This document shows, in pieces, positions 1-57,982 of a stretch of 64,000 nucleotides of DNA. A model generated the notes under the pieces. It saw only the letters and a list, made by a program, of their open reading frames with translations, ran no database searches and had not been told where the DNA came from. The stretch is taken from positions 1-64,000 of the forward strand of contig JADGEH010000007.1 in NCBI GenBank assembly GCA_016744475.1. Reading direction: 5' to 3'. The stretch's first letter is position 1. Every line of letters begins with the position of its first letter. The position numbers and the translations under genes were made by a program. Origin of the DNA: Thiotrichales bacterium (lineage in GTDB: Bacteria > Pseudomonadota > Gammaproteobacteria > Beggiatoales > Beggiatoaceae).

Positions 1-240
1 GGTGGCACCAGCGATGCGAAGGGTTTTGGTTCGCATCGCGGGTGTTGCCAAGACACAATGTATTGGCCGTATAGTCATGGGGGAAGGCAGTGGCCGTAGT
101 AGCGGAGTGCGAAGGTGACTGGGTGATACCGGACGTGTCGGGGCACCAAAATAGCGTCTCGCGCCCACTTAAGACGTTCTAAGGACAAGGATGTCCGGTA
201 AACACCTCTTAAACGATGCGAGACACCACAATAAAATGTT
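1..240 (+). ncRNA. Candidate structured RNA (family unknown)
   Basis: No convincing gene is visible, but the stretch is rich in nested complementary segments. Positions 1-49 form a long hairpin: a 9-bp outer stem (with G-U pairs) around a perfect 10-bp stem, GCGATGCGAA with TTCGCATCGC. Around 153-222 three nested stems are visible: GTCTCGC/GCGAGAC outside, TTAAGA/TCTTAA inside it, and GGACA/TGTCC innermost. A last hairpin at about 220-252 (AGACACCACA/TGTGGTGTCT) could be the 3' end or a terminator, though no strong T run follows. The purine-rich middle loosely recalls group II intron RNA, but I see no domain V and no reverse transcriptase. The 5' part may lie outside the window. The pairing is read directly; RNA identity and strand are inference. 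Confidence 0.35.
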
Positions 241-320
241 TGTGTGGTGTCTGTTTGAATAAAAAATCAACATCCAACTTAGTAAACCAGTCATCAGTCA
301 GAGACTATAGCAAGATGACA

Positions 321-354
321 TCAGTTATTAAGACTGGCAGTCTTGGGTTTAGCT
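321..354 (+). repeat. Short hairpin repeat, copy 1
   Basis: A small palindrome, AAGACT-GGC-AGTCTT, with flanks that recur at 44489-44540 inside a dead IS4-like transposase. The copy here lacks the 17-bp interior of the other. The rest of 241-460 shows no gene or clear signal. Confidence 0.5.
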
Positions 355-460
355 ATAAGTAGGTAGGCAAAAATTCACTAACAAAAATTTACCTTAATAT
401 CTGTTCCTATGCAAAATCACACGCTATACGCCCTGGTTTTATTCAGCTTTCACCCCTAAT

Positions 461-691
461 TCACGACCAAAAACGTCTTTTTTTCTTTTCGCTCACTACA
501 ATAATTACGGGTTGTGCACTGGCATCAATGCTACCACTGCTTTGTAATTCAGCAACACAAGCTTGCACTTCATCTAACAAACCTCCTGAATGGCCTTTTC
601 TCAATGCTTTAACACGTTTTGATTTATGTTTACCTAAATCAATTAAAATCGGTGCTTGGGTTTCACCGGTGTCTTTTTCTTCAATGCTCAT
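461..691 (-). CDS. Small conserved protein, DUF6200-like
   Basis: A 76-residue protein with no signal peptide or membrane segment. The N-terminal part reads APILIDLGKHKSKRVKALRKG and the tail is hydrophobic then basic (VIIVVSEKKKRR). From memory this fits the DUF6200 family, whose members start with a PxxxDLGKxxxK-type stretch; function unknown. A ribosome site (AAGGA) lies 8 bases before the ATG. It is 12 bases downstream of the 100-aa basic protein, so the two are very likely co-transcribed. They are the last genes of a run that includes a FeeM-like acyltransferase, a radical SAM protein and a methyltransferase. Confidence 0.7.
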   Translation of the reverse strand: MSIEEKDTGETQAPILIDLGKHKSKRVKALRKGHSGGLLDEVQACVAELQSSGSIDASAQPVIIVVSEKKKRRFWS

Positions 692-703
692 AAGATGTTC
701 CTT

Positions 704-1006
704 TTAGCGCAGTAGGGGCAATTTCAAAACTTTAAGCTGTTTTTTGGCAGCACGATAACTATTGTAATTTAAGTCACGTAACCAACCATCTTTTTTCTTA
801 CGCTTAGATTTGTCATGACGTTGTAAATAGATTTTCACTGATTTTTGCTGAGCTTTACCCAGTTTACGAATGGTTTTATCTAATGGCTTGAGTAATGCTG
901 AGGTTTTCTTTTTTTTCTTTTTTGGCGCTTTATACAACAAGGTCGTTTGACCTGCTGGAGTGAGAACCGTGATACGGCGGATGGAACGGCTTAATCTCAG
1001 TTGCAT
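704..1006 (-). CDS. Small highly basic protein, DUF6312-like
   Basis: A 100-residue, very lysine/arginine-rich protein with no signal peptide or membrane helix. It starts with a short strand-like segment (RRITVLTPAG), has a KKKKKK run near residue 30, and a conserved-looking core YLQRHDKSKRKKKDGWLRDL followed by NSYRAAKK. The RHxxSxRKxxDGWLRDL core matches what I recall of DUF6312, which has no known function; nucleic-acid binding is possible from charge alone but is not shown. A strong ribosome site (AAGGAGA) precedes the ATG by 5 bases. It sits 60 bases after the acyltransferase gene and 12 bases before the DUF6200-like gene, so it is probably part of the same operon. Confidence 0.72.
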   Translation of the reverse strand: MQLRLSRSIRRITVLTPAGQTTLLYKAPKKKKKKTSALLKPLDKTIRKLGKAQQKSVKIYLQRHDKSKRKKKDGWLRDLNYNSYRAAKKQLKVLKLPLLR

Positions 1007-1066
1007 GATATTCTCCTTAGACTACGTTGTGGGTTTGCTATAAATCTAAGCATATTTGCCATTAGC

Positions 1067-1642
1067 CTAGATGATATTTTTGAATCTTTCCCAACCACTA
1101 GAGACTTCCATTTGCATTAAAACTAATGGGAGCTTGACATTATTATCAACAGACGCTGTTTTACTTGCCAATACGGTGGCACCGATAATACGCTGATAAA
1201 CCTTGACATGTTTTTGATTAAAAACAAAAAGACAAAGATCATAGCCTTTTTCTTGTGCGGTACGAAATGTTTCTTTGATAAGTTCAAGCACTAAACGGCG
1301 GTTGTAACGATATTCTTGAGTGGTGGCGATGCGCCAAGTCGCGCATAGATTGCCATTAAAATGCGCCCGAACATGGTCGGTTTCTGCTTTAAAGTAAACA
1401 TCGGTATATAACCCCTGCGAGCCATCTAATGTGAGTGATACTGTGCCGACAATATGCTGATTTTTTTCTGCAATAATAATTGTTGTTTGCGGAATAGTAT
1501 CCAGATGTGGGTAGCTGATAATTTTTCCATCTGCGCGAGGTAAAATATCGCCTACCGCAACCAAGCTGTCGTGGGTAAGGCGATAGACTTCATCCATACG
1601 GGATATATCTGTTAACCGGTTGATAATATAGTCTACAGCCAT
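1067..1642 (-). CDS. FeeM-like N-acyl amino acid synthase / GNAT acyltransferase
   Basis: A 191-residue soluble protein of the acyl-homoserine-lactone-synthase/FeeM branch of the GNAT fold. Visible hallmarks are the N-terminal substrate-loop region with Y-P-H-x(4)-P-Q-T, a central beta segment IVGTVSLTLDGSQGL, an ETD-x-R element and the late NPKH-like NQKHVKVYQRIIGA. Known FeeM proteins transfer a fatty acyl chain, usually from acyl-carrier protein, to an amino acid; the substrate here cannot be read. A strong AAGGAGAG ribosome site precedes the start. It lies 43 bases after the radical SAM gene and 60 bases before the basic protein, same strand. The context suggests a small lipid-like product, but this is inference. 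A generic GNAT role remains possible. Confidence 0.7.
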   Translation of the reverse strand: MAVDYIINRLTDISRMDEVYRLTHDSLVAVGDILPRADGKIISYPHLDTIPQTTIIIAEKNQHIVGTVSLTLDGSQGLYTDVYFKAETDHVRAHFNGNLCATWRIATTQEYRYNRRLVLELIKETFRTAQEKGYDLCLFVFNQKHVKVYQRIIGATVLASKTASVDNNVKLPLVLMQMEVSSGWERFKNII

Positions 1643-1685
1643 TTTGCTTACATCTCTCCTTACCGTTGTTTTTCCAGATAAAAGA

Positions 1686-3248
1686 TTACAAATTGCTTTG
1701 TATCCAATGATCGCCAGAACGCATATTTTTAGCTAATGTGTGCAGATGGTAGTGCATGGCACAGGTGACGATAAAGTATAACCAGAGTGCCGGATTAAAC
1801 TGTTTGAACATGAGGTGTTTAAAGTGCTTACGATACACAGCGACCATACTGCGATCCGGCAAAGAACGCATTAAGTGGTGATAAAACAAGAAGGTTTTAA
1901 GCATAAATCCACTTTGCGCTTTGACATATTGCCAGGGATGTTTTTTCCAATACGGTTTTCGCCCGCGCCCAAAATCAAGCTTACCTTCAATAAATAGCGC
2001 TTCGATGCGCCCAAAAAAAGCATCGGGTTCATACAATGCATTCATCACATCAATGTAACCATCGCGCAGTTCTTCTCGACTGAGTAATTTGGGAATCACA
2101 TTCGTGCCAAATTCATTCATATCACGCAAATCTAAACGTTCTTCTTCAGCAAGTCGTTTATACAAGGGGGTGCGCGGAATGGCATGGAGCATACCAATAC
2201 CGGCAATAGGGATGCGCGCTTCTTTAATGAATTCTTTTTGTGCGGCAAAAATACTCGTATCATCATGATCAAAGCCCAAAATCATGCCGCATGTGACTTC
2301 CATACCGGCATCTTGAATTTTTATCACTTGTTCAGTCATTGATAATGCGCTTTTGATATTTTGATTTTTGCGGGTTTCTTTTAATGAATCTGCATTGGGT
2401 GATTCAATACCAATGAATACTTTGGTGATATTAGCTTCAACCATCAATTGCATGAGTTCATCATCCTTGGATAAATCCAGGGATACTTCGGTAAAAAAAG
2501 TAAAAGGGAAACCGTGTTTCCATTGATAGGCGATGACTTCTTTGAGTAGTAGTTTGATGGCTTTTTTATTGCCAATAAAGTTATCATCCACAATGAATAC
2601 GCGAAGAAAATCTTTAGTGCGCAATGCATCCAGCTCATTAATGATTTGTTGCGCATTCTTGAGTCGCGGTTTGCGTCCAAAGGTCACGATAATATCGCAA
2701 AACTCGCATAAAAATGGGCAGCCTCTGGAAAACTGTATGCTGCCGTTGATGTAATGTTTGGCTTTCAATAAATCGGTACGAGGTACAGGAATACTAGTCA
2801 TGTCAGTGGGTTCTGTTTGCTCGTAGCGTTTTTGATGCGTCCCCTGTTTCCAATCGAGCAAAAACTGCGGCCATGTTCGTTCAGCTTCACCAATAAAAAT
2901 GGCATCGCATAGTCCATCAAAATAATCTTGTTTAACTGTGACCCAAGGGCCTCCCACTACAGTAAAGATATGGCGTTTTTTCAGTTCATTGAGAATTTCC
3001 ACCATGCGGAAACGCTGTACACTCATGCCGGTCAGCCCAACTAAATCTGCTTTTGCAACACGTTCAAAATCAATCTCTTCAATATTTTCATCAATCAAGG
3101 TGATCTGATGTTCTTCTGGGGTGAGCGCTGCGAGTAATGGAAGTGCCGCTGTTGGCATATTGGAACTTTTGCCTAAAAAGGGTAAGGCATACTCCATTCC
3201 CCAAAATGAAATACCAAATTTCGGATTAATCAGCACAATATCAGCCAT
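1686..3248 (-). CDS. B12-binding radical SAM protein (DUF4070 type)
   Basis: A 520-residue protein. Residues 1-135 resemble a cobalamin-binding Rossmann domain (LIDENIEEID, then GLTGMSVQRF and VVGGPWVTV) without the DxHxxG motif that supplies a lower His ligand. The radical SAM core follows, with the CxxxCxxC cluster in SRGCPFLCEFCDI near residue 175 and a GIESPN strand near 280. The last 170 residues fit the DUF4070 extension of this class. Such proteins typically methylate unactivated carbons or otherwise modify lipids and natural products; the substrate is unknown. Its ATG overlaps the stop of the upstream methyltransferase gene (TAATG), so the two are translationally coupled. Confidence 0.88.
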   Translation of the reverse strand: MADIVLINPKFGISFWGMEYALPFLGKSSNMPTAALPLLAALTPEEHQITLIDENIEEIDFERVAKADLVGLTGMSVQRFRMVEILNELKKRHIFTVVGGPWVTVKQDYFDGLCDAIFIGEAERTWPQFLLDWKQGTHQKRYEQTEPTDMTSIPVPRTDLLKAKHYINGSIQFSRGCPFLCEFCDIIVTFGRKPRLKNAQQIINELDALRTKDFLRVFIVDDNFIGNKKAIKLLLKEVIAYQWKHGFPFTFFTEVSLDLSKDDELMQLMVEANITKVFIGIESPNADSLKETRKNQNIKSALSMTEQVIKIQDAGMEVTCGMILGFDHDDTSIFAAQKEFIKEARIPIAGIGMLHAIPRTPLYKRLAEEERLDLRDMNEFGTNVIPKLLSREELRDGYIDVMNALYEPDAFFGRIEALFIEGKLDFGRGRKPYWKKHPWQYVKAQSGFMLKTFLFYHHLMRSLPDRSMVAVYRKHFKHLMFKQFNPALWLYFIVTCAMHYHLHTLAKNMRSGDHWIQSNL

Positions 3249-4141
3249 TAGGTTTTCCTCATGATTTGAGCCACCGTTATTGCTTCAGAACGGTCATAGG
3301 TTTGTGGGCGAGAAGAGCCAAGATAGTGTGCGCCCAATAAGGCTCCGTGGGTAGTTTTTTCTAATGTGTATTGGTGAGTGCGCAGAAAATCTGCCAGCTT
3401 ATCTCTACCAATGACCCAACGGATGGATTCTTTTTGTGTTTTCAAATAAAGTTTAAGTAGAATACGGCTGGTATTTTCTGGGCTATCGGGGGGTTCTAAG
3501 GAGGTGAAAATAATTCTTGCATCAGCATTCATTAAATCTCGTAATGATTGAAAGAAATTGACAACCTCACTCTGATCAAGATACATCAATACACCTTCAC
3601 TAATGAATAAAGTGGGTTTGGTTGAGTCAAAGCAAGTTTCTTGCACTAGAAAATCAGCAATATTTTTTTTGCTAAAATCAATATCTAATAAATAAAAATT
3701 GTCAGTTGGAGTCACCGCCTTACGTTTTATCAAAGAAATATCTTGGCGATCTAGTTCAATAAAGCAAGCTTGTGGATAACGGGTATGCAAGCGCCATAAT
3801 AAAGTATCCAGTCCAGCTCCTAAATTAACAATTTGCTTAACCCCTGCATCCAAAGCCTGCTGTACGGTATCTTCTATGAATCGCTTACGCAATACATAGT
3901 GCAACCTAAGACCGGGTGCTAATAAGTATTCTATAAAGGGAGATAAGGTCTGAAACCAAGTATTCTCTACATGACGTAGATACATCGCCCCTTCTTCAGA
4001 AGAAGCCAGCATGTGTCGGCTGGCTGCACTTACCTCTTCAGGAACAATACCCGCGTAATGCGGATCAGCAGCAATCAGTAGAATGCCTTGTTGAACATTA
4101 AAAGCCGTTGTACTGGCTTTTTGGGGTTTTATACGCATTTG
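3248..4141 (-). CDS. PPM/LCMT-family SAM-dependent methyltransferase
   Basis: About 297 residues. The SAM-binding loop VNLGAGLDTLLWRL and the acidic loop FIELDRQD are typical of the leucine-carboxyl-methyltransferase-like family (COG3315), whose members are often O-methyltransferases of secondary metabolism. The reading frame stays open up to 4180, but the first 13 codons and the ATG at 4180 lie in the terminal repeat of the element at 4156-4318. I choose the ATG at 4141 because AGGA sits 8 bases before it and the element supplies no ribosome site. The gene ends in TAATG, overlapping the radical SAM start. Substrate unknown; co-location with a FeeM-like enzyme and UbiB-like kinases suggests lipid or quinone-like chemistry, as inference. 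Confidence 0.82.
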   Translation of the reverse strand, partial: QMRIKPQKASTTAFNVQQGILLIAADPHYAGIVPEEVSAASRHMLASSEEGAMYLRHVENTWFQTLSPFIEYLLAPGLRLHYVLRKRFIEDTVQQALDAGVKQIVNLGAGLDTLLWRLHTRYPQACFIELDRQDISLIKRKAVTPTDNFYLLDIDFSKKNIADFLVQETCFDSTKPTLFISEGVLMYLDQSEVVNFFQSLRDLMNADARIIFTSLEPPDSPENTSRILLKLYLKTQKESIRWVIGRDKLADFLRTHQYTLEKTTHGALLGAHYLGSSRPQTYDRSEAITVAQIMRKT

Positions 4142-4155
4142 CTTAATTCCTGCAT

Positions 4156-4318
4156 TAGACTTGTTGCGAGGGGTAGGCATCGTAACGAAAAGGTGTGGTT
4201 TTGAGGCTGTTTTTTCGATTTTTTGAGGCGAATAACGGGTTATTTAACGAAAAAAAGCGGAAAAACAGACCAAAATCCACGCCTTTGCAGTCAATGAATG
4301 CCCCTTGCAACAAGTCTA
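4156..4318. repeat. MITE-like element, family 1 (full copy)
   Basis: About 163 bp with imperfect terminal inverted repeats beginning TAGACTTGTTGC and ending CAAGTCTA. The interior carries CCAAAATCCACGCC near one end and GAGGCGAATAACGGG in the middle. No coding capacity. One end touches the stop codon of the UbiB-like gene at 4320; the other supplies a spurious in-frame ATG to the methyltransferase gene. Confidence 0.85.
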
Positions 4319-4319
4319 T

Positions 4320-6089
4320 TTAAACTTCCCGACATATTCGACATAGCTTGGCAAAAGTACGCTCGATGTAAAGCAGACAAGCAAAAATGATAAACCAGAT
4401 TTGTATATCGAGTATCAGCGACCAATGCAAAGGTAAGAGCCATTGTGCTTCAGGCAAGGCCATTCCTCCGTATTGAGTAAGAAAAACCAGCAATAAATAT
4501 AATCCGCTAAATCTCAAGAGATTAATAGTTATAGTTAGCAGAGTATAAAAACCTTGAGTAATCTTACTACTTGTACCTTCAAACACCTGAGCTAAACGGC
4601 GCACCACTGAACCGCGAAATACCATAGATTCATTTAGACTGATGGGCGCGTCAATGAGGGTTGTTAACTGGGTGCTATCAAATTCTTTATGGCTATCGAG
4701 CATACGTTTCAATACGCGCTGATTGCGTTGGCGAAAATAGCGTTTCATTAAAGTAATGACGCTGATATCAGGAATCAGCTCACGAATAGCAGCATCCAAT
4801 GTCGTGCTGGCGCGCATAAAGCGTAAAATTGACCACGTCATAGTAATTTTGTATTCACCTAACAGTGCAATCACTTCATCATTAACCGAGCTGACGTTTT
4901 TTTCTTTGTACGGTAATTCTTTAATTTGTGAACGTTCTTGCCAAGCTTGCAAAATAGCAGTAAAACTTTCTTTTAATCGGCTTAAATCAGTAGCGGGGAT
5001 GTTATCAGGAAATAGTAAATATAAATCAAATACTTTTGCATATTGACGATTGACTAAGGCTTCCATATAAAGTGAATATTTTTTCAAGAAATCCTGATCA
5101 GAAAAGCCAATACTGCCAAAATCAATAAAAGCAATTTGACTGTCGCGCAAAAGAACAATATTGCCAGGATGTAAATCACCGTGAAAAAGGTTGTCTTCAA
5201 ATAATTGGCGAAGATTAGAGAAAAATAAACGCTGCCCTAAACGCTTAGTCGATATATTATTTTCCTTGCGCCATGCCGCAAGACGATTTGGATCACTATA
5301 GGCTATTTTTAAATAATCAGACATTAATGCGCCTTGTACAAATTCCATGACTAAAATGCGTTTACTACTGTATTTTGAATACACTTTAGGAACGTAAACA
5401 CGATGGCGACGCAAGGTTTTTTTCATGCGCTGCATATTAGCAATTTCATAGTGATAATCCAGTTCTTCTTCCATTAGTTGTTCTATTTCCCACAACATAT
5501 CTGACCAGCGCATGTGCGGGCTAATGGCAAACACACCCAGCAAACGAATAAACACACGGATGACTGCAATATCACGGAGAAACGTTTTATGCGCATCGGG
5601 TTTGCGCACTTTAACCGCCACCCAAACCTTTTCTTGTTTTAAGTAAGCGCGATGTACTTGAGAAATGGAAGCTGCTGCAAAAGGTGTATCAGCAAAGACG
5701 CTGAAATACTCTTCCAACGGTGCGCCTAAATCGTCTTCTATTTGTTGTCGAGAAAGAACAGGATCGAAACCGTGGGCTTGATCTTGTAATTTGCTCAATT
5801 CTTCGCACACTTGTGCGGGTAAAATATCCACGCGCAAGGATAATAATTGACCGATTTTTATCCACAACACGCCCATTTTTTGAAAAAAATGTCCTAATAA
5901 TTGGCCTACTACTGTCGGCTGTGCTTTTCCGCGTAGTTTCAACCATAACAACTGCCCCCCTAGTTTCAATAATTGCATCAGTAAATATCCCACGCGCAAA
6001 TGGGCTGCTGAGGCAATGTCATCAATTTTAATCGGTTGGCGTTCTTCTGGATGAATCAGCGGTGTAGGGATACGTTTTTTTTTCAGCAC
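4320..6089 (-). CDS. AarF/UbiB/ABC1-family atypical kinase
   Basis: A 589-residue membrane-associated protein of the UbiB/ABC1 family, which supports quinone or other isoprenoid-lipid metabolism in bacteria. All hallmarks are present: KIGQLLSLR with the family KxGQ motif near residue 76, an Ala-rich loop AAASISQVHRA, the lysine strand VAVKV, HGDLHPGN and an intact DFG (IDFGSIGF). Two hydrophobic helices near residues 510-575 should anchor it in the membrane. The start is GTG, 2 bases after the stop of a paralogous gene, so the two are co-transcribed. E. coli UbiB is about 546 aa. There are no ubi genes nearby; the neighbours instead are methyltransferase, radical SAM and acyltransferase genes. 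The TAA stop abuts a MITE-like element. Confidence 0.88.
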   Translation of the reverse strand: MLKKKRIPTPLIHPEERQPIKIDDIASAAHLRVGYLLMQLLKLGGQLLWLKLRGKAQPTVVGQLLGHFFQKMGVLWIKIGQLLSLRVDILPAQVCEELSKLQDQAHGFDPVLSRQQIEDDLGAPLEEYFSVFADTPFAAASISQVHRAYLKQEKVWVAVKVRKPDAHKTFLRDIAVIRVFIRLLGVFAISPHMRWSDMLWEIEQLMEEELDYHYEIANMQRMKKTLRRHRVYVPKVYSKYSSKRILVMEFVQGALMSDYLKIAYSDPNRLAAWRKENNISTKRLGQRLFFSNLRQLFEDNLFHGDLHPGNIVLLRDSQIAFIDFGSIGFSDQDFLKKYSLYMEALVNRQYAKVFDLYLLFPDNIPATDLSRLKESFTAILQAWQERSQIKELPYKEKNVSSVNDEVIALLGEYKITMTWSILRFMRASTTLDAAIRELIPDISVITLMKRYFRQRNQRVLKRMLDSHKEFDSTQLTTLIDAPISLNESMVFRGSVVRRLAQVFEGTSSKITQGFYTLLTITINLLRFSGLYLLLVFLTQYGGMALPEAQWLLPLHWSLILDIQIWFIIFACLLYIERTFAKLCRICREV

Positions 6090-6091
6090 AA

Positions 6092-7897
6092 TTAAATCGC
6101 CGCGTGTATATCAGGAATCATAATTTCTATTTGTTCAAAGCGTTTCTTCAAGCGTCTGCAAAGCAAAAACAAAAAGCCTGAAACTACAACACCGCTGCTC
6201 CATAGCAAACAGTTGTTAGGTAATGCCGAGACAATATTTGCTAGTTGTTTACCTATAAAAAACTCGAATGAGCCCCCCATACAGTGAGTAAAGAATGTGA
6301 TGCTACAAAAACCACATAGGCAGAAGAAAAATAGCGTAGCGAGACTAAAAAATGTACTAATGACATAACCGGTACTGGTAGTTTTGCCTTGTACTGATTG
6401 TGCTTGACGGCGCAAGATACTTTGCTGGAAAAGGGTAAATTCAGCGATTTGCTTAGGCAATTCGGCTGCTGCATCCAGACTGCGTGGTAATCGTTTTGGC
6501 ATTTGGCGTATCTGTTGTTTAACACCACGTCGGTGGGCGTAATGAAAATAACGGAGCAAATAATGTCGGTAATTCAATTCTGAACTTAAAGCGTTTAATG
6601 AAGCATCTAAATTGCTCAAAGCCATACTCATTTTAGATAGCGGCCATTGCACGATAAAATGATGTTGAAAAGCAATTTTATTGACTTGTAAAAACATATA
6701 GGTCATTGACTTTTCTGCGTAGGGAATGCCTTTAATATAGGTTTGTGTGTGCCAACGTCGCCAAATGCGCACTAAATCTGCTTTCACAATACTGACATCC
6801 ACGGCTGGCAAGCGTGAGGTTAATAATAAGTAAATATCTGCTGCTGTCGCATAGTTTTGACTAGCAATACTTTGTAAACAGATGCGGTATTTATCCAGTA
6901 ATTCGGCTTCCATAGAAGACATACGACGACAATCAAGCACTGCAATACGACTATCGCGTAGCAATACCACATTACCAGGGTGCATATCAGCATGAAATAA
7001 ATTGTCTTCAAAAATCTGCCGATAAACCGATGAAAATAAACGCTTTGCTACTCGTTTAGGCTGAATATTATTGTCTTTCAACCAATGCTGCAAACGTGTT
7101 GGATCATTCTGTTGTAAAGCAATAAAATCAGACATCAGCGCTGCACGAATAAACTCCATCACTAATACACGCTGACCACTGTAACGCCTAAACGTATCTG
7201 GTACATACACGCCGTGAGGCTGTAGTTTTTTCTTTAACCGCCGCAGCGACGATTCTTCATAACGAGAATCCAATTCACGTTGGGTCATTTCTTTGGCTTG
7301 GACACATAACTCATCCCAACGCAATGCCGGATAAATAGAAAAAAAGTCTAATATTTTAATTACCCATTGCATCAATTTGATGTCTTGAGCAAAAACGGCT
7401 TCGATAAAAGGCTTGTGCACTTTTACCGCAACCAAACGTTGTTCATGACGCAAAAAAGCACGGTGTAGCTGTGTCAATGACGTGGTGGCAAAAGGCTTTT
7501 CATCAAACTGAGCATAGATCGATTCCAGGGGGGAACCCGCAGCCTCTGTAATAGATGACTGTATCTCAGAAAATGCTACACCTTGTCCCGTGTCTCTAAT
7601 TTTAGCCAGTTCAGCGCGGATTTCAGCAGGCATCAAATCGCCGCGTGTGGCTAATAATTGTCCTACTTTCAGCCAAACGCTGCCTAATTCTTCCAGAACA
7701 CAACGCAGGCGGGCGGCATAAATACGATGATCGAGGTTTTGCCACTTATTTCGCGCTAGAAAAGTCAGCAGTTCTAAAAAATATCGCACTATCTTGAAGG
7801 TTCTGGCTAACGTTGGTGTATGTGGCGACCTAATGGCGATAGGTGGACGTTCAGAAGGGGATATTAATGAGCTAGGAAGTTGTTGTTCAGTAAGCAT
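6092..7897 (-). CDS. Second AarF/UbiB-like protein, probable pseudokinase
   Basis: A 601-residue paralogue of the next gene, with the same order of motifs and a similar C-terminal pair of hydrophobic segments (near 505-525 and 560-585). It keeps KVGQLLATR, VAVKVHKP and HADMHPGN. The metal-binding DFG, however, reads DCR (VLDCRRMSS), and the Ala-rich loop is changed to ATTSLTQLHRA. Loss of the DFG glycine and aromatic residue suggests weak or no catalysis and a regulatory or partner role to the intact copy, as inference. The frame is intact, so this is not plain decay. It is the first gene of the minus-strand run; no strong ribosome site is visible before the ATG. Confidence 0.85.
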   Translation of the reverse strand: MLTEQQLPSSLISPSERPPIAIRSPHTPTLARTFKIVRYFLELLTFLARNKWQNLDHRIYAARLRCVLEELGSVWLKVGQLLATRGDLMPAEIRAELAKIRDTGQGVAFSEIQSSITEAAGSPLESIYAQFDEKPFATTSLTQLHRAFLRHEQRLVAVKVHKPFIEAVFAQDIKLMQWVIKILDFFSIYPALRWDELCVQAKEMTQRELDSRYEESSLRRLKKKLQPHGVYVPDTFRRYSGQRVLVMEFIRAALMSDFIALQQNDPTRLQHWLKDNNIQPKRVAKRLFSSVYRQIFEDNLFHADMHPGNVVLLRDSRIAVLDCRRMSSMEAELLDKYRICLQSIASQNYATAADIYLLLTSRLPAVDVSIVKADLVRIWRRWHTQTYIKGIPYAEKSMTYMFLQVNKIAFQHHFIVQWPLSKMSMALSNLDASLNALSSELNYRHYLLRYFHYAHRRGVKQQIRQMPKRLPRSLDAAAELPKQIAEFTLFQQSILRRQAQSVQGKTTSTGYVISTFFSLATLFFFCLCGFCSITFFTHCMGGSFEFFIGKQLANIVSALPNNCLLWSSGVVVSGFLFLLCRRLKKRFEQIEIMIPDIHAAI

Positions 7898-7940
7898 TCA
7901 TAGAGTCTAGGCTATAATGCCAACAAGATCACTTTATTTT

Positions 7941-8100
7941 AGAGCCTATACGAAGATGGGGAATCGAAGCGAAAATTCGCTATTTTGAAGCAGGTTTTTC
8001 GGTTTTTTAAGGCGAATAGCGGGCGTGTGTTGATAAAAAGCGGAAAACCTGACCAAAAGGGTGGATTTGCAGCCGATTATCCCGTTTTCGTATAGGCTCT
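7941..8100. repeat. MITE-like element, family 2 (full copy)
   Basis: About 160 bp, AGAGCCTATACGAAGATGGG at one end and CCCGTTTTCGTATAGGCTCT at the other, with GAGCCTATACGAA as inverted terminal sequence. The interior has AAGGCGAATAGCGGG. It lies between the UbiB-like gene start and the aprA terminator. The remainder of 7898-8193 shows no gene. Confidence 0.9.
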
Positions 8101-8193
8101 TAATGGGTATTGCCCAACCATATCGCGTTGATAGCGCAACACGCCTACTCTTTTGCCATTAACAACGGATAAACCTGAGTAAATAACAGACAT

Positions 8194-8224
8194 AAAAAAA
8201 CCGCCCCGAGAGGCGGTTTTTTTA
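8194..8224 (-). terminator. Rho-independent terminator of aprBA
   Basis: A GC-rich stem (ACCGCC/GGCGGT, loop CCGAGA) flanked by A7 and T7 runs, placed 22 bases beyond the aprA stop. The flanking runs would allow it to act in both directions. Confidence 0.93.
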
Positions 8225-8245
8225 TCAGACTAAATTAAACAACTA

Positions 8246-10234
8246 TTAGTCTTTAGGCGCTGGTTTAGAAACGATATCTACGTGAGCACGTTTGAACACA
8301 GTCCATTTTTTGCTGTCTTTGTCGTAAATAGAGTTTACGAAGCATTTCCAGTTTTCTTCATCGGTATAGTTATGATCCATACGATAGTAGAAACCAGGAT
8401 AGCGAGACTCTTCACGGAATTGGATGTGTTTCATGTGAGCTTCAGCAGCCAAGATGCGGTGATAGTTTTCCCATGCACGTAATAATTCGTGCAAATCTTT
8501 TGCACGCATTTTCAATGCATCTTCTTTCAGCATCTCAAGTTTGCCTTCAGCCACTTCCATCATTTTCGCATTAGTGCGATACCAAGTGGCAACACCTGCT
8601 ACGTATTCGTCCATGATTTTTTGCAGACGGAATTGCAGCATTTTTGGAGTGATGTAGTTAGGATTCACATCAATCGCTGTGGTGTAGTCTTTGTGCTCTA
8701 AGAAAGTGCGGACTGGGCGATAAATATCTTCAATCAGTTCGTCAACAGAGGTGTTGAGTTCTGGTGTCCAATCTTTATTGTCCATAACAAATTTAACCAT
8801 GGATTTCGCACACATACGACCTTCTGCGTGAGAACCAGAGGAGAATTTGTGACCGGATGCGCCGACACCATCAGCAGCGGTGAACAGACCTTTAACGGTG
8901 GTCATTGAGCGATAGCCCCAGTTCCAGCCGTTAGGCAGGTGACCTGGTACTTTATCTTTTTCTGCGTGCAATTCTTCGGTAGGTGCGCCCAGATCGGTAG
9001 GACCTGAAACCCAGATACCGCAGCAGCCAGAATGAGAACCTAACAAGTAGGGTTCGGTAGGCATCAATTCAGAGTTTTTCTTCTCTGGTTCGATGTTTTC
9101 ACCGGCCCATACGCCTGCTTGACCAATACACATGTCTAAGAAATCTTCCCAAGCTTCTGCTTCCAGATGCTTGATTTCTTTAGGAGTCATGTTTTTAGCC
9201 AGATCACCCAGTGCAGTCACGGTGTCCATGTAAATAGGACCACGGCCTTCAATCATCTCGTTGAGCATAACGTGGTTACGCAGGCAAGATGGGGTCACAG
9301 CCGCTTTGTTGTAAGGGTAGTAAGGTTTCAGCAGTTCTTGTGCGCCGTCTTTGCTCAGGTATTCTTCACCATAAGCATTAATCGCTTTAGATTTGAACAA
9401 CAGGAACCATGCACCAACAGGACCGTAGCCGTCTTTGAAACGTGCTGGTACGAAACGATTTTCCATCATGGTCAATTCTGCGCCGGCTTCTGCCGCCATT
9501 GCATAGGTTGAACCTGCGTTCCATACGGGATACCAAGCACGACCAGTACCTTCACCGACTGAACGTGGGCGGAAGATGTTGACGCAACCACCTGCCACTA
9601 ACAGGCAAGCTTTGAATTTGTAAACGTGCAGTTTGTGTTCACGCACGTTGAAACCCACAGCACCCGCCACGCGGTTAGGATCGTTTTTGTCATTGACTAA
9701 TTTAACGATGAAAACACGTTCTTGGATGCGCTCGGTACCGAGTGCTTTTTTCGCAGCTTCAGCCACGATCCATTTGTAGGATTCGCCGTTGATCATGATT
9801 TGCCATTTACCAGAACGTACAGGTTTGCCGCCGTCTACTAATGGCTTGCCTTCGTCACCAGGTTGTTTCCAGATAGGCAGACCCCAGTCTTCAAAATGAT
9901 GTACGGAGTCATCAACGTGACGGCCTAAGTCATAAGCCAAATCATCACGGGTAATACCCATTAAATCGTTAGAAACCATACGAGCGTAGTCAGCAGGATC
10001 GTTATCACCTAAATAGGTGTTGATCGCAGACAGACCTTGCGCTACCGCACCGGAACGATCCATAGCGGCTTTGTCTACTAATTTAACTTTGATTTCGTGA
10101 CCGTCAGCTTTAGCTTGTTCTAACCAAGGGCCCAGCTCGTAGGCTGCACCGCAAGCGCCCATGCCACCACCGATCAGAAGGATGTCTACTTCTTCTTCAA
10201 CTACTTCTGGATTTCCAAATGTACCTTCAGACAT
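8246..10234 (-). CDS. aprA: Adenylylsulfate (APS) reductase alpha subunit
   Basis: A 662-residue flavoprotein subunit of dissimilatory APS reductase. The N-terminal FAD-binding motif LLIGGGMGACGAAYEL follows a strand near residue 20, and RSGAVAQGLSAIN, the long FAD-domain body, and the C-terminal helical region rich in aromatic and acidic residues all match AprA. In a sulfur oxidiser the enzyme works in reverse, joining sulfite and AMP to APS in the cytoplasm and passing electrons through AprB to the membrane. It lies 58 bases after aprB and ends in a strong terminator, so aprBA forms a two-gene operon. Length equals the family norm. No AprM or Qmo subunit gene is present next to it. Confidence 0.97.
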   Translation of the reverse strand: MSEGTFGNPEVVEEEVDILLIGGGMGACGAAYELGPWLEQAKADGHEIKVKLVDKAAMDRSGAVAQGLSAINTYLGDNDPADYARMVSNDLMGITRDDLAYDLGRHVDDSVHHFEDWGLPIWKQPGDEGKPLVDGGKPVRSGKWQIMINGESYKWIVAEAAKKALGTERIQERVFIVKLVNDKNDPNRVAGAVGFNVREHKLHVYKFKACLLVAGGCVNIFRPRSVGEGTGRAWYPVWNAGSTYAMAAEAGAELTMMENRFVPARFKDGYGPVGAWFLLFKSKAINAYGEEYLSKDGAQELLKPYYPYNKAAVTPSCLRNHVMLNEMIEGRGPIYMDTVTALGDLAKNMTPKEIKHLEAEAWEDFLDMCIGQAGVWAGENIEPEKKNSELMPTEPYLLGSHSGCCGIWVSGPTDLGAPTEELHAEKDKVPGHLPNGWNWGYRSMTTVKGLFTAADGVGASGHKFSSGSHAEGRMCAKSMVKFVMDNKDWTPELNTSVDELIEDIYRPVRTFLEHKDYTTAIDVNPNYITPKMLQFRLQKIMDEYVAGVATWYRTNAKMMEVAEGKLEMLKEDALKMRAKDLHELLRAWENYHRILAAEAHMKHIQFREESRYPGFYYRMDHNYTDEENWKCFVNSIYDKDSKKWTVFKRAHVDIVSKPAPKD

Positions 10235-10292
10235 AATCTCAACCTTATTTTATGTTTATGAAAGAGAATAAACGAGAATGTGATGATACGTC

Positions 10293-10754
10293 TTACAGAC
10301 GAATCAGTTCAGCCGCATCACCTGTTTTCAGGTAGCCGGTGTAGAACTCGTTTGCTTCAATTTTAGACAAGTCAGCCGCTGGTTTACCGGCATAAGGATC
10401 AATAGAACCTTCTGGGGTGGTGCGGATGGGGAATTTGAAACGTTTCATAACGCCGTTACGGAATTTGATCGTCCACATAATGGAGTCAGTACCGCGCAGA
10501 GGTTGTACAGAAGCGCCCATAGGCACAACGTCAGCATAATGACGTACTTCAATAGCATTTTGAGGACAGATTTTAACGCAAGAGTAGCATTCCCAGCATT
10601 GCTCAGGCTCTTGGTTATAAGATTTCATAGCGTGACCGGTGTCAGAACCATCTTTGTCCAGTTTCATCAGGTCATGCGGGCAGATGTACATGCAAGCGGT
10701 TTTGTCCTGACCTTTGCAGCCATCGCATTTATCAGTTCTTACAAATGTAGGCAT
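10293..10754 (-). CDS. aprB: Adenylylsulfate (APS) reductase beta subunit
   Basis: A 153-residue ferredoxin-like electron-transfer subunit. Two [4Fe-4S] binding sets are visible: CDGCKGQDKTACMYICP near the N-terminus and CWECYSCVKICP near residue 55. The C-terminal tail (after about residue 100) is the part that wraps around AprA in known structures. The frame is open to 10802, but I choose the ATG at 10754 because AAGGAGA stands 5-6 bases before it and the product then starts MPTFVRTDKC, as AprB normally does. It precedes aprA and should be translated from the same message. The promoter must lie in the AT-rich region upstream. Confidence 0.95.
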   Translation of the reverse strand: MPTFVRTDKCDGCKGQDKTACMYICPHDLMKLDKDGSDTGHAMKSYNQEPEQCWECYSCVKICPQNAIEVRHYADVVPMGASVQPLRGTDSIMWTIKFRNGVMKRFKFPIRTTPEGSIDPYAGKPAADLSKIEANEFYTGYLKTGDAAELIRL

Positions 10755-11389
10755 AGGTGTCTCCTTCGATTTGTGATTAGATATACCCAAAAAATCAGTC
10801 ACTTAAAAATCTAATTTAGCGGGCAAGTTACTGTATAAAGAGGTCCGCCACGTTGCGCCAAAACGGTATGTTAAGAATTTGGAATTTTATTAAATAATAA
10901 AATTCATACTCCTAATGATTGATGACGGTGAAATGTTCTACAGCATTTGACAATGTGTTTATCGACATTCCAAGAGAGTAGGCGCTAACTTTGTGTACCC
11001 CTGAAATGTGATGGCGCATTATCTATCGAGGTTTCTAAAAATCCAATACATTTATTCTTTGATTCATATAAAAATCATTTATTATCCCTTAATAAAGCAA
11101 TTTATGGCACAGGGTTTTTATTTATTTTCCCATTTATTCAAAGGGTTGAAATATTACCTTAGTATTTTTATAGGTTTTTTAGGGGGCTTTAAGATCAATT
11201 AAATCAGCTATTTGACATCAGAAAAATTAACTTTTTTTATACCCAATATAAAAATTGACACGAAAAATAGTGTTTTTCAATTTTTCCAATACCGACTAGG
11301 GGGCTTGTTTTGCCTTTCAGCTCGCTTTTACTAGCACATCACGGCAAGGCGACAGCCACTGCACTTGAGTTCTTGAGTTCTTGAGTTTA
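10755..11389. other. AT-rich region upstream of aprB
   Basis: About 630 bases without a credible gene; a 64-codon frame at 11008-11202 has low-complexity composition and no ribosome site. It should hold the aprBA promoter (minus strand), but I cannot place -35/-10 boxes with confidence. Just before the element at 11390 is a short tandem repeat of TTGAGTTC units. Confidence 0.5.
10882..10905. promoter_or_regulatory. Perfect AT palindrome upstream of aprB
   Basis: GAATTTTATT and AATAAAATTC are exact inverted 10-bp arms separated by 4 bases, about 130 bases upstream of the aprB start. This could be an operator or a cruciform-forming site. The symmetry is seen; the role is inference. Confidence 0.4.
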
Positions 11390-11550
11390 AGAGCCTATAC
11401 GAAAACGGGATAATCGGCTGCAAACCCACTCTTTTGGTCAGGTTGTCCGCTTTTTTTCGTTAAATAGCGCGCTATTCGCCTTAAAAAACCGAAAATCCTG
11501 CCTCAAAATGGCGAATTTTCGCTTCGATTCCCCATCTTCGTATAGGCTCT
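11390..11550. repeat. MITE-like element, family 2 (full copy)
   Basis: About 160 bp, opposite orientation to the copy at 7941-8100, with the same AGAGCCTATACGAA ends. Its terminal AG forms the last two bases of the TAG stop of the sensor gene at 11549. Confidence 0.9.
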
Positions 11551-13414
11551 AAGACAGGCGTGATATTGTGTTCACTTCAGGCAGACCGCGTAAATTGATA
11601 GGTAAATGCATGGTAAAGATAGACCCTTTACCCAGGTGACTGTTGACTTTAATTTCACCACCCAAGGCTTGACACAACTGGCGACTGATAGATAAACCCA
11701 AACCTGCACCCGGCGTGGTGCCATCAGTAGTGGCAGAGGTTTTGTCTACTTGCATAAAGGTTTCAAAAATACTCTCCAAATGATCTTCAGGAATACCGAC
11801 CCCCGTATCTTCTATCCTAAAGTTTAAAATGCCGACTAAATTGCATTTATTGCAATCTATATCTTCTGGATCACAGAGTTTGATATTTTTACCTGAATTA
11901 AAGGTATAACTAATATGCAATGTCACCTGTCCACATTGGGTAAATTTATTGGCATTGTGCAAAAGGTTTAACAAAATTTGTTTAAGTTTGGCAGGGTCTG
12001 TACACACTTGCCCAATATCTTGAGCATATTCAACGGTCAGTTGGTTACGATGTCTTTCTACTAATGGATGCATGAGAGTTACAATATTTTCAACTAAATC
12101 TGTCAGCATAAATTGTTCTAACTCTAACTTATATTGTTCGGATTCAATTTTAGTGACATCTAAAATACCACTAATCATGCTTAATAATTGTTGCCCTGCA
12201 CCTTGAATTTTCTTCAAGTCAGGCATCATATCGCTATAGCCAAAATCTTCCGCTTCCTCTTCAATCAATGTGCTATAACCAATAATGGCATTCAAAGGGG
12301 TGCGTAATTCATGGCTCATTTTGGCTAGAAAAATAGTTTTTGCAGAATTAGCTGATTCAGCTATATCTCTGGCATGTTCAGCCATGCTTAAGAGTTGAGA
12401 GGTTTGATGGTGTGCGGCTTTTAATTCCATATATAATTGCAAATTCTTTAAGGCAGAAGCACATTGATAAGCCATTATTTTCAAAAGTTCTTTATCTGTG
12501 CGCAAGAGACAATGTGCATTTTCTAAATAAATAAAACTTTGACTCTCTTCATTGGCTTGTTTATCAATTTGTAAACGAATCAGCATAGCTTTTTCCGGCA
12601 AAGGATCACCATATAAAATGCTGTGTTCACTGTCTTTATGCGATTCCAAACAAGCGATGCAATTTTTTTTGATTTGATCCGCCATGCGGTTATTTTCATA
12701 TTCACCGTCAGCAAAATGCCCCGTGCCTGCATGAATACTGATGTCATCATCTTTAGCAGTGGTCGCTACAAACCCACTTTTCAGGGTGGAAATTAAACTG
12801 TTTTCTCCCAAATGACACAAACTAATAATCTGACTTAGCACGCCATCAAAAAATTGCTTAATAGATTGAGGGTGATAAAGCTCTGGTGCGGCATCCAGGA
12901 TTTTGGTTAAAGCCCCACGATGAGTATTTAAAGAACTTAAAGCTTGATAGGATTTTAACGCCAGCCGCAAAGTGGTATACAACTTGGTTTCTGTGAGTTC
13001 GTTTTTTTCTTTATAATCATCAATATCATAACGCTCAATAATATCTTTCTCTGGGGCTAATCCAGGTTGTCCAGTACGAATAATCAAACGAGTGAGCACG
13101 TTATTTTGTTCATTACGAATGAAATCCACCAATTGTAATCCGGCATCATCCGTTTCCATGACCACATCAATAATGGCCACCACAATCTTAGGATGCTGCA
13201 TCAGCACTTCTCTGGCTTCGCTGCCTGACAATGCCGTCAATATTTCCAGCGGGCGACCTGAGAATTCAAATCCTGATAAAGCCAAACGAGTAATGGCATG
13301 AATATCGGGTTCATCATCTACAATCAACACTTGCCACGGTGGAAACAACGTGACATTTGGCTGAGCTTCTGATGCAGCAGAGGTGGTTTTTTTACGACGA
13401 ATAATCTTTTTCAT
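11549..13414 (-). CDS. Hybrid sensor: receiver + DUF3369-like + histidine kinase
   Basis: A 621-residue cytoplasmic protein. A receiver domain comes first (about residues 27-155), with VLIVDDEP acidic residues and the phospho-acceptor Asp in AIIDVVMET. Residues about 160-320 fit the DUF3369 sensor-like domain often found after a receiver. After a helical linker comes a HisKA helix with SHELRTPLNAIIGY (His near 366) and an ATPase domain with NLLHNANKF, DTGVGIPEDH and GAGLGLSIS. It is therefore a kinase controlled by an N-terminal receiver, probably a phosphorelay step. Its start overlaps the upstream GAF kinase gene by 4 bases. The TAG stop uses bases of the MITE-like element at 11390-11550. 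No transmembrane segment is visible. Confidence 0.9.
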   Translation of the reverse strand: MKKIIRRKKTTSAASEAQPNVTLFPPWQVLIVDDEPDIHAITRLALSGFEFSGRPLEILTALSGSEAREVLMQHPKIVVAIIDVVMETDDAGLQLVDFIRNEQNNVLTRLIIRTGQPGLAPEKDIIERYDIDDYKEKNELTETKLYTTLRLALKSYQALSSLNTHRGALTKILDAAPELYHPQSIKQFFDGVLSQIISLCHLGENSLISTLKSGFVATTAKDDDISIHAGTGHFADGEYENNRMADQIKKNCIACLESHKDSEHSILYGDPLPEKAMLIRLQIDKQANEESQSFIYLENAHCLLRTDKELLKIMAYQCASALKNLQLYMELKAAHHQTSQLLSMAEHARDIAESANSAKTIFLAKMSHELRTPLNAIIGYSTLIEEEAEDFGYSDMMPDLKKIQGAGQQLLSMISGILDVTKIESEQYKLELEQFMLTDLVENIVTLMHPLVERHRNQLTVEYAQDIGQVCTDPAKLKQILLNLLHNANKFTQCGQVTLHISYTFNSGKNIKLCDPEDIDCNKCNLVGILNFRIEDTGVGIPEDHLESIFETFMQVDKTSATTDGTTPGAGLGLSISRQLCQALGGEIKVNSHLGKGSIFTMHLPINLRGLPEVNTISRLS

Positions 13415-27120: not shown

Positions 27121-27644
27121 GACAGCTATCCTCCTTTGCATTATTGTTTTTTTGTCGACGATACAAAAGCCTGATAGCAAGCATAGTACAGTACAGTATC
27201 ATGACTTAGGAATGAGGGAGGAAACTTAGAAATGCGGGAATTTTTCAGCCGTGTAGATACTCCGCTCTCAAGTATTTTGTTGATAAAAATCAAATGGTTA
27301 TCAATTTTCTGGACTACTGCATCCGACAGGCAGCAACCTGTATACTCGATATTAAAATTAGAATATGCGAATAAACAGAAAGTTGAAATCAGTTGAAAAT
27401 CCACGATAAGAAGGTTCGCGGTGTACACCCGATGCGCAGCCGCTTTAACGCCGCAAAAATCAGGTGGGCTTGACGCAGTATTTAGCCTTTGGCTCAGATA
27501 CACTACGCCCCCTCATTTCTCATGATACATTTTGTCACGCCCAACCTATTCACTAGATCAGTATGTAGCAACAGTATTCCTTAAAGTTAATGATTTTGAA
27601 CAAAATCATCTTGCCAAGGTTGATGGGCTTTGAGCCTTGCGTTG
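27121..27644. other. Gap upstream of the AraC gene
   Basis: About 520 bases. A 120-codon frame at 27141-27503 (minus) has no ribosome site, no recognisable motif and overlaps the AraC leader, so I do not call it. The AraC promoter should be here; I cannot place it. Confidence 0.4.
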
Positions 27645-27804
27645 AGAGCCTATACGAAAACGGGATAATCGGCTGCAAATCCGCCCTTTTGGTCAGGTTT
27701 TCCGCTTTTTTTCGTTACACGCCCGCTATTCGCCCTAAAAAACCGAAAAACCCGCCTCAAAATGGCGAATTTTCGCTTCGATTCCCCATCTTCGTATAGG
27801 CTTT
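27645..27804. repeat. MITE-like element, family 2 (full copy)
   Basis: About 160 bp with AGAGCCTATACGAA and TTCGTATAGGCTTT ends, same orientation as 11390-11550. It lies 41 bases after the stop of giant gene B. Confidence 0.9.
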
Positions 27805-56539: not shown

Positions 56540-57853
56540 ATGAAAACAACAGATACCATTGCATCTATGATGCTGAAAATCCCTGCTATTAAGCCATCGA
56601 ATACTGTTAATGATGTGGCTCAGTTGTTTTTATCTGAAGATTTTAAGCACCTATTGTCCATCCCTATTGTGGATGCAGGTCAACCCGTAGGGCTTATCAA
56701 CCGTTATGATCTTAATAAGGTGTATTTAAAAATGTATGGGCGTGAACTATATGGCAAACAAGCCATTGCCAAGCTCATGACTAAAGCGGTGATTGTTGAT
56801 AAAAATCAAATGATTGAAGCGGCAAGTCATCACATCACTCAACATATTCGTTTTCCTATTATGGAAGATTTTGTGGTGACTGAAGAAGGACAATATGTGG
56901 GCGTAGGCATTGTATTGGATTTGTTGAAAGCCATGGAAACCCGTGTACTGTCTCGCACTAAAGAATTGAGCAAAGCCTATCAAAGCTTAAAAGAATCTCA
57001 AGCTCAATTGGTGCAATCAGAGAAAATGGCTTCATTAGGACAAATGGTGGCGGGTGTTGCACATGAAATTAATACGCCTTTGGGCTATGTGCGCAACAAT
57101 GTTGAAGTCACTCAAGGATTGTTTGGTCAGGCAAAAGATTTAATTGAAAACTATGCGCAATTAGTCACTTTATTGACGGATGATGAAATAGAAGAAGAGG
57201 TATTAGGAAAGCAATTGGCTTTAGTGGGTGAATTAAGTGAACCTTTCTTAGAAGATGATTTGCTGAACGCTATGGATGAACTATTTAAAGATTCTTTATA
57301 TGGTGTAGATCAAATTTCAGAATTAGTATTAAACCTTAAAGATTTCAGTCGTCTGGATCAAGCTAAAACAGACCATGTTGATTTAAACCAATGTATTGAT
57401 AGTGCCCTGAATATAGGCCGTAATATATTGAAGTATAAAGTGACTATCAAAAAAAAATACGGCCATTTACCGCCTTTAAAAGGGGCACCATCACAATTAA
57501 ACCAAGTGTTTTTGAACTTACTCACCAATGGTGCACAGGCTATTCAAGATAAAGGCACTATTTGGATCAAAACCTGGGCTGATGATAATGGGGTGTATAT
57601 CAGCATTCAAGATAATGGCAAAGGGATTCCTGCAACGGTGATGAAAAGAATATTCGATCCTTTTTTCACCACTAAACCGGTGGGTGAAGGCACTGGGCTG
57701 GGTTTATCCATTAGCTATAAAATTATTGAGCAACACAATGGACAAATTAAAGTGGCTTCAACATTAAATAAAGGAACAAAATTTTTAATCACGCTGCCCT
57801 TAAATAGTGATAAAGCCATTCAGAGCCTATACGAAGATGGGGAATCGAAGTGA
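56540..57853 (+). CDS. CBS-domain histidine kinase
   Basis: 437 residues. A pair of CBS domains (about 1-135: PSNTVNDVAQLFLSEDF..., then FPIMEDFVVTEEGQYVG) would bind adenosyl ligands and act as the sensor. A coiled coil leads to MASLGQMVAGVAHEINTPLG (HisKA, His near 175), then the ATPase domain with NLLTNGAQAI, DNGKGIPATVM, FDPFFTTKPV and GTGLGLSIS. No membrane helix. The gene runs into a MITE-like element: the final residues (about SLYEDGESK) and the TGA stop are encoded by its terminus at 57822. The kinase fold is complete before that point. It is followed by a double-receiver gene and may signal to it. Confidence 0.9.
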   Translation: MKTTDTIASMMLKIPAIKPSNTVNDVAQLFLSEDFKHLLSIPIVDAGQPVGLINRYDLNKVYLKMYGRELYGKQAIAKLMTKAVIVDKNQMIEAASHHITQHIRFPIMEDFVVTEEGQYVGVGIVLDLLKAMETRVLSRTKELSKAYQSLKESQAQLVQSEKMASLGQMVAGVAHEINTPLGYVRNNVEVTQGLFGQAKDLIENYAQLVTLLTDDEIEEEVLGKQLALVGELSEPFLEDDLLNAMDELFKDSLYGVDQISELVLNLKDFSRLDQAKTDHVDLNQCIDSALNIGRNILKYKVTIKKKYGHLPPLKGAPSQLNQVFLNLLTNGAQAIQDKGTIWIKTWADDNGVYISIQDNGKGIPATVMKRIFDPFFTTKPVGEGTGLGLSISYKIIEQHNGQIKVASTLNKGTKFLITLPLNSDKAIQSLYEDGESK

Positions 57854-57982
57854 AAATTTGCCATTTTGAGGCAGGATTTTCGGTTTTTTAAGGCGAATAG
57901 CGGGCTATTCAACGAAAAAAAGCGGAAACCCTGACCAAAAGGGCGGGTTTGCAGCCGATTATCCCGTTTTCGTATAGGCTCT
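57822..57982. repeat. MITE-like element, family 2 (full copy)
   Basis: 161 bp, same orientation as 7941-8100, with AGAGCCTATACGAAGATGGG at the left. Its left end overlaps the last 32 bases of the CBS kinase gene and supplies its stop. The rest of 57854-58166 shows no gene but must hold the promoter of the receiver gene. Confidence 0.95.

Follow-up and report, generated by a model that had tools for sequence, protein, structure and literature searches.

In several bacterial phyla, a UbiB-family gene is found together with two genes for small proteins with the domains of unknown function (DUFs) DUF6312 and DUF6200, as a recurring module. The module is described here from a locus of seven genes at positions 461-7897 of a 64,000-base stretch of DNA (hereafter the window), which is the start of contig C103 in the genome of a Thiotrichales bacterium (the host; 5.34 Mb in 253 contigs). 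DUF6312 adjoins DUF6200 in all 19 of the other loci taken forward, in 17 of them a UbiB-family gene is part of the stretch that was fetched (12-22 kb), and genes for polyketide synthases (PKS), non-ribosomal peptide synthetases (NRPS) or acyl activation are found near the module in 13 of the 19, against none of 20 comparison stretches. The window itself carries the module as I define it in this analysis, with the two DUF genes adjacent and a UbiB-family gene nearby. An earlier note on this DNA had taken the seven genes as a possible biosynthetic locus; it overlooked that the UbiB genes and the small proteins make up a unit of their own in several phyla.

A UbiB, DUF6312 and DUF6200 module recurs across phyla

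The window holds four genes of the module:

6092-7897, minus strand: UbiBa, UbiB/ABC1-family protein of 601 residues (PF03109, motifs, hydrophobic segments)
4320-6089, minus strand: UbiBb, UbiB/ABC1-family protein of 589 residues (PF03109, intact motifs, two C-terminal hydrophobic segments)
704-1006, minus strand: small basic DUF6312 protein of 100 residues (PF19831)
461-691, minus strand: small DUF6200 protein of 76 residues (PF19702)

All seven proteins of the locus score above the curated Pfam cut-offs, DUF6312 with 67.9 bits (cut-off 27) and DUF6200 with 68.6 bits (cut-off 26.9). The structure models (mean predicted local distance difference test score, pLDDT, 79 for each) consist of a hairpin and a long helix for DUF6312 and of a strand-helix-helix-strand arrangement for DUF6200, and neither found a PDB fold match at E <= 0.001 in searches that the low predicted template modelling scores (pTM; 0.54 and 0.41) weaken. 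Among 57 genomes of the host and its relatives, DUF6312 is present in the host only and missing from the other 56, which include the one other genome of the same genus, and in a phylum-wide sample of 397 genomes DUF6312 and DUF6200 were each found once, each time in the host. Searching plasmids with tblastn recovered DUF6200 in Methylosinus trichosporium OB3b and Azospirillum argentinense and gave no plasmid match for DUF6312; a single-query scan of genome contigs and viral contigs with DUF6312 found no relative, its 8-residue exact patterns being too strict. An alignment of three DUF6200 sequences detected four loci in genome contigs (two in Anaerolineales, one in Sorangium cellulosum So ce26 and one in a further bacterium, whose genome was met again when the phylum of the Sorangium genome was sampled); viral contigs gave none. 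Follow-up sampling at E <= 0.001 yielded 7 of 301 genomes in the order of genome G693 and 9 of 235 in the phylum of genome G692, the starting genomes included. The 19 loci taken forward belong to Chloroflexota, Myxococcota and Alphaproteobacteria and were searched by iterated hidden Markov models (HMMs); a locus of genome G1225 (L108) was excluded from them, as its DUF6200 match (21.7 bits) is below the cut-off and has an internal stop, with no DUF6200 open reading frame (ORF). In the Azospirillum locus, the UbiB gene lies about 74 kb off on the same plasmid.

The neighbourhoods of the module were compared with 20 stretches from ten of the same genomes, chosen by contig number and not at random, two of them inside a complete chromosome. 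HMMs for ketosynthase (KS), AMP-ligase, condensation, acyltransferase (AT) and thioesterase domains matched 12 of the 19 neighbourhoods (359,578 bp; mean length 18.9 kb) and none of the 20 comparison stretches (291,053 bp; mean length 14.6 kb), a contrast which shows enrichment and not its exact size, because the HMM seeds were drawn from five of the tested loci (L072, L073, L095, L097 and L103), which match by construction. The thirteenth neighbourhood (L100) was recognised through Pfam by a gene with ketoreductase, acyl carrier protein (ACP) and hydrolase domains. In OB3b and Azospirillum, the module is located within or beside PKS clusters with malonyl transferases and 3-hydroxy-3-methylglutaryl coenzyme A (HMG-CoA) synthase, accompanied in OB3b by a PfaD-family protein, and the Sorangium neighbourhood contains an acyltransferase, thioesterases, an enoyl-CoA hydratase and an HMG-CoA synthase. 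The presence of HMG-CoA synthase beside these modules (L051, L072 and L054) suggests beta-branching polyketides of the trans-AT type. Sorangium has UbiB fused to a class-3 lipase, and in Azospirillum such a lipase comes ahead of UbiB. The Chloroflexota loci carry PKS, NRPS or AMP-ligase genes, several of them together with FHA-ABC-2 transporter fusions (L073 and L095 by Pfam; similar-sized proteins of the same BLAST cluster in L074, L096, L099 and L100), and at 6990-7943 of L103 a Coq4-family protein adjoins UbiB in the company of genes for NRPS and thioesterase; quinone genes were not seen there. In two Chloroflexota loci, L097 and L098, an AMP-ligase gene separates a PKS from the nearby UbiB twin, and an NRPS of condensation, AMP-ligase, ACP and reductase domains is located on the opposite side; the L097 PKS scores 887.9 bits against the model of the mycolate condensase Pks13, below its cut-off of 2100.

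UbiBb and UbiBa match PF03109 (ABC1) with 203.4 and 165.5 bits (cut-off 22.9), are 34% identical to each other over 545 columns, and both end in two hydrophobic segments (509-541 and 562-581 in UbiBa). The KxGQ motif, the A-rich loop, the lysine, the catalytic loop and DFG are all intact in UbiBb; UbiBa has an altered A-rich loop (ATTSLTQLH) and DCR replacing DFG, with the remaining motifs kept. Adjacent twin UbiBs also occur in 9 of the 19 other module loci, namely in all eight from Chloroflexota (seven genomes) and in L106, and the remaining loci have a single UbiB, L071 and L102 with additional ABC1 genes from a distant clade. As judged by the motifs, one copy is altered in every twin: in the eight pairs from Chloroflexota, it is the copy adjacent to the DUF genes that has lost the G of DFG in each case, the D of DFG in four and the Q of KxGQ in most, and one copy of L106 lacks the lysine as well as both aspartates. 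The UbiB tree was built without L109 (a second strain's copy of the Azospirillum gene) and without the short leading fragment of an ORF that is split in L096. In it, a single clade (100/99) unites the eight altered Chloroflexota copies, the intact copies make up two groups with support at the same open fork, and the window pair is placed elsewhere, in the company of Sorangium, Azospirillum and OB3b proteins and of several from Myxococcota, on long branches at an open fork. The twin state has thus probably arisen more than once. The split ORF is the first twin UbiB of L096 (10767-12604), which is divided into two overlapping ORFs, perhaps by a frameshift or an assembly error.

The FeeM, methyltransferase and radical SAM block and the repeat elements

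Between the UbiB pair and the DUF pair, three genes for enzymes are found on the same strand, and the locus is interrupted by a repeat element:

4156-4318, no strand: MITE-like repeat element of 163 bases (inverted ends, genome copies)
3248-4138 (listed ORF to 4180), minus strand: LCM-family (TIGR00027) methyltransferase dependent on S-adenosylmethionine (SAM) (PF04072, TIGR00027)
1686-3248, minus strand: B12-binding radical SAM enzyme with DUF4070 (Pfam matches)
1067-1642, minus strand: FeeM-like N-acyl amino acid synthase of 191 residues (PF21926)

The seven ORFs all exist and all lie on the minus strand, in the transcription order UbiBa, UbiBb, LCM methyltransferase, B12 radical SAM enzyme, FeeM-like protein, DUF6312 and DUF6200, with spacings of 2, 181 (containing the 4156-4318 element), -1, 43, 60 and 12 bases, which confirms the arrangement of mostly short gaps or overlaps reported before. 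The G+C content is 40.5% in the locus and 46.5% in the window. With the UbiB and DUF pairs standing on either side of the FeeM, LCM and radical SAM genes, the locus looks composite, made up of one block of UbiB and DUF genes and another of the three enzymes.

The FeeM-like protein scores 89.6 bits against PF21926 (cut-off 27), well over the cut-off, and differs in its setting from the FeeM synthases in being joined here with an LCM methyltransferase and a B12 radical SAM enzyme; no FeeM structure was found by phmmer among solved structures, and no match among plasmids. The methyltransferase is above the cut-offs of both PF04072 (93.8 bits, cut-off 22.3) and TIGR00027 (99.5 bits, cut-off 93.55), and its matches among solved structures include LCMT1 and ML2640. 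Its ORF as listed, from 4180, begins inside the repeat element; since the homologue in locus L131 begins near residue 15 of the listed ORF, and AGGA is present about 9 bases ahead of the ATG at 4138, this ATG is the likelier start. The radical SAM enzyme matches Radical_SAM (54.1 bits, cut-off 29.5), B12-binding (34.3, cut-off 32.1) and DUF4070 (59.8, cut-off 22), and its CxxxCxxC motif reads RGCPFLCEFC. I do not claim it as a known lipid methylase, as no NCBIfam equivalog cut-off of the B12 radical SAM enzymes (HpnR, PhpK, BchE and others) was reached, the best being TIGR04013 with 77.3 against 251 bits, and HpnR giving 58.5 against 650. Its closest relatives, 54-56% identical, are encoded on Rhizobium and Skermanella plasmids, where three neighbourhoods (L052, L055 and L056) contain neither FeeM nor LCM, and in seven gammaproteobacterial loci with relatives of 42-44% identity no other window protein was matched.

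FeeM matches are present in 11 of 42 genomes of the order, host included, and in the ten relatives, where 11 places were examined, the LCM methyltransferase is the next gene to FeeM in three (G010, G017 and G035); in the window, the radical SAM gene lies between the two. In G017, a PKS starts about 8 kb beyond the pair. A class-wide pairing of FeeM and LCM is unsupported, as 13 other LCM places in 263 genomes of the class are without FeeM nearby, judged by an HMM from four sequences whose sensitivity was not benchmarked. At 9396-10304 of L131, a FeeM domain is fused to a cyclic-nucleotide-binding domain and adjoins LCM, and cyclic nucleotides might switch the FeeM-LCM pathway there.

The element at 4156-4318 has terminal inverted repeats of 25 bases whose arms are 84% complementary and which start and finish with TA, and its copies of nearly full length in the genome number at least 40, itself counted, at 90-100% identity, a lower bound given that 40 of 580 candidates were scored. 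Being short, with terminal inverted repeats and many copies, it has the marks of a miniature inverted-repeat transposable element (MITE), and it is best read as a MITE-like insertion between UbiBb and the methyltransferase gene that is no part of the pathway, in place of the functional role that the earlier note had considered for it. A regulatory RNA or shared regulator was rejected for this element, there being no Rfam match in 1-8400 and the repeat being genome-wide. A second MITE-like family with inverted ends of 23 bases, related to the 4156-4318 element in its middle part, is found upstream of the locus at 7938-8103 and in three more near full-length window copies of 89-94% identity (27642-27802, 11387-11552 and 57819-57985).

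The upstream side of the locus is marked as follows:

8192-8225, minus strand: terminator-like hairpin (stem of 15 pairs, T run) behind the gene upstream, bounding the locus on that side

In 1-8400, terminator-like sites are about as frequent as chance would give (8 observed, 8.4 expected), and this hairpin (8225-8192) is the single strong one. The two genes further upstream (8246-10802) seem to resemble AprA and AprB of sulfur oxidation. As the window begins at a contig end, the locus may extend past position 1. An inverted repeat of 15 bases is present at the contig start (6-20 and 30-44), and positions 19-153 resemble a part of host contig C147 with 70% similarity, so that the contig may break within a repeat.

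Possible roles of the locus

The reading I favour, tentatively and at somewhat less than an even chance, is that the FeeM, LCM and radical SAM enzymes make a small acyl lipid, and that the UbiB pair and the DUF proteins handle the hydrophobic product at the membrane. The FeeM-like enzyme would transfer an acyl group from acyl-ACP onto an amino acid, and the LCM-type enzyme would methylate the free carboxylate, carboxylate methylation being established for LCMT1, so that the predicted product of the two is an N-acyl amino acid methyl ester (NAME); the radical SAM enzyme would add a methyl group or otherwise alter an unactivated carbon. An acylated, possibly methylated lipid-like product, as put forward in the earlier note, is consistent with this gene content. 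UbiBa and UbiBb, as membrane-anchored ATPases of which one is intact and one divergent, would work as a pair with DUF6312 and DUF6200, and the module would lift, hold or present an acylated intermediate or product at the membrane, by analogy with what has been proposed for COQ8.

I infer this membrane-anchored handling from the precedents of COQ8, Cqd and MABP-1, and from the hydrophobic C-terminal segments. According to the available text of one source, COQ8 is proposed to use its ATPase activity for extracting the precursors of coenzyme Q, which are hydrophobic, and two yeast UbiBs, Cqd1 and Cqd2, act against each other (PMC8346625). The window proteins share with UbiB and COQ8 the ABC1 fold, the KxGQ and catalytic motifs in UbiBb and a C-terminal hydrophobic hairpin, and with Cqd1 and Cqd2 the presence of two family members, opposing roles being in the same text a feature of the yeast pair (PMC8346625). 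However, they are tandem genes with one copy altered, tied to DUF6312, DUF6200 and assembly-line clusters instead of quinone genes, and below the UbiB equivalog cut-off. MABP-1 (Rv3197/MSMEG_1954) is described, in the accessible parts of two papers, as a UbiB-fold ATPase which binds erythromycin via an accessory domain and dimerises by swapping that domain (PMC6208485; PMC8696161). MABP-1, to which UbiBb is related in sequence, is a dimerising UbiB-fold ATPase with a polyketide as ligand (PMC6208485, as far as available), but as described there it is a homodimer without transmembrane regions, whereas the window UbiBs end in hydrophobic segments and are far below the MABP-1 cut-off.

Alternatively, the UbiB/DUF module may serve self-protection or export, binding the finished hydrophobic product as MABP-1 does, and shielding a target or passing the product to an exporter, with no role in synthesis. 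The solved structure nearest to UbiBb by sequence is MABP-1 (5yjz, E 6.5e-25), which according to the available text gives inducible macrolide resistance requiring its ATPase residues (PMC6208485), and the FHA-ABC-2 transporter fusions adjoin the module in several Chloroflexota loci. However, UbiBb and UbiBa stay far from the MABP-1 equivalog NF050082 (91.4 and 66.7 bits against 800), the window locus has no transporter-like gene, and the lipase fusion and the Coq4 neighbour suggest work on lipids, which makes this explanation rather unlikely. A service of the UbiB pair in ubiquinone synthesis, with the methyltransferase acting on a quinone precursor, is suggested by family membership and by the Coq4-family protein of L103, but I consider it very improbable, as both proteins remain below the UbiB equivalog TIGR01982 (250.8 and 232.1 bits against 487.55), another UbiB-family gene of the host on contig C89 has a better ABC1 score (264.5 bits), the methyltransferase is of the LCM type and of no quinone methyltransferase family, and the relatives of the module are located in assembly-line clusters. 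Hardly more credible is a lipid inclusion organised by the module, which DUF6312 would cover like a coat as a helix protein and at whose surface the UbiBs would act in the manner of the plastoglobule ABC1K proteins, which the available text of PMC8346625 mentions: the very basic window DUF6312 (pI 11.4) with its modelled hairpin and long helix would suit such a role, but the charge is not conserved (pI 6.3 in Azospirillum) and the DUF models have no fold match.

The locus could also be a loose or chance neighbourhood of independent units (the UbiB pair, the LCM, radical SAM and FeeM genes, and the DUF pair) that were joined by insertion and lateral transfer. The full seven-gene order recurs in none of the other genomes searched, the MITE splits the locus, and the relative from the same genus is without DUF6312. 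However, the UbiB gene and both DUFs recur jointly across phyla, and in the window the UbiB and DUF pairs flank the FeeM block on the same strand, no gap other than that at the MITE being longer than 60 bases, so that I hold a chance neighbourhood to be unlikely. Conservation of gene order, which the earlier note had set as a test, holds for parts (the UbiB twin, DUF6312-DUF6200 and LCM-FeeM), but by that test the whole order is not conserved in close relatives, DUF6312 being missing from the 56 relatives.

Several observations weigh against the membrane-handling reading. By BLAST clustering, no other module locus contains FeeM, LCM or a radical SAM enzyme of the window type, so that the union of both blocks is seen in the host genome alone, and the FeeM-LCM pair is confined to the order among the genomes sampled. 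The 163-base MITE separates UbiBb from the LCM gene, L105 is without UbiB in 20 kb, and six of the 19 loci, all from the phylum of Sorangium (L101, L102, L104, L105, L106 and L107), have none of the assembly-line domains. UbiBa itself is best regarded as divergent and not clearly dead, and to call it inactive would overstate, because most of its catalytic residues appear to be kept.

The trans-AT or other type I PKS clusters of Methylosinus OB3b, Azospirillum and Sorangium carry the same UbiB/DUF6312/DUF6200 accessory genes; unlike them, the window locus has no PKS, and the PKS genes of the host are on other contigs. Contigs C147 and C55 (L063-L066) hold two large genes whose domain series runs from AMP-ligase, ACP, KS and AT to condensation, one with a methyltransferase and one with an aminotransferase domain, and nothing in this analysis links these assembly-line genes to the window locus. 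In the open literature searched, I found no publication on DUF6312 or DUF6200, no account of the UbiB/DUF6312/DUF6200 set, nothing joining Methylosinus trichosporium OB3b with a trans-AT polyketide and, judging by titles and the openings of abstracts, no UbiB/AarF module with polyketide or other biosynthetic clusters; among the matches listed for AarF and trans-AT PKS clusters, none involves AarF. The kinds of protein are already known, and it is for their set and its recurrence that no account was found there.

A broader proposal, possible but doubtful, is that UbiB ATPases with DUF6312 and DUF6200 are an undescribed machine on PKS, NRPS and acyl-lipid pathways of several phyla, which would extract and present membrane-bound intermediates, in many lineages as a heterodimer of an active and an inactive copy, and which in the host would serve a FeeM, LCM and radical SAM route to a carbon-methylated N-acyl amino acid methyl ester. 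UbiB proteins are present in every domain of life, with debate continuing on what exactly they do, and a module linked to assembly lines offers defined products for testing ATP-driven lipid extraction in the culturable Methylosinus trichosporium OB3b and Azospirillum. DUF6312 and DUF6200 gain a first context. NAMEs, the product class predicted for FeeM with a carboxyl methyltransferase, are known from Roseovarius tolerans, where according to the available text no candidate synthase gene was found (PMC11580390), and their link to the window locus is a proposal only; if it is true, the FeeM, LCM and radical SAM pathway would give candidate genes for these orphan lipids.

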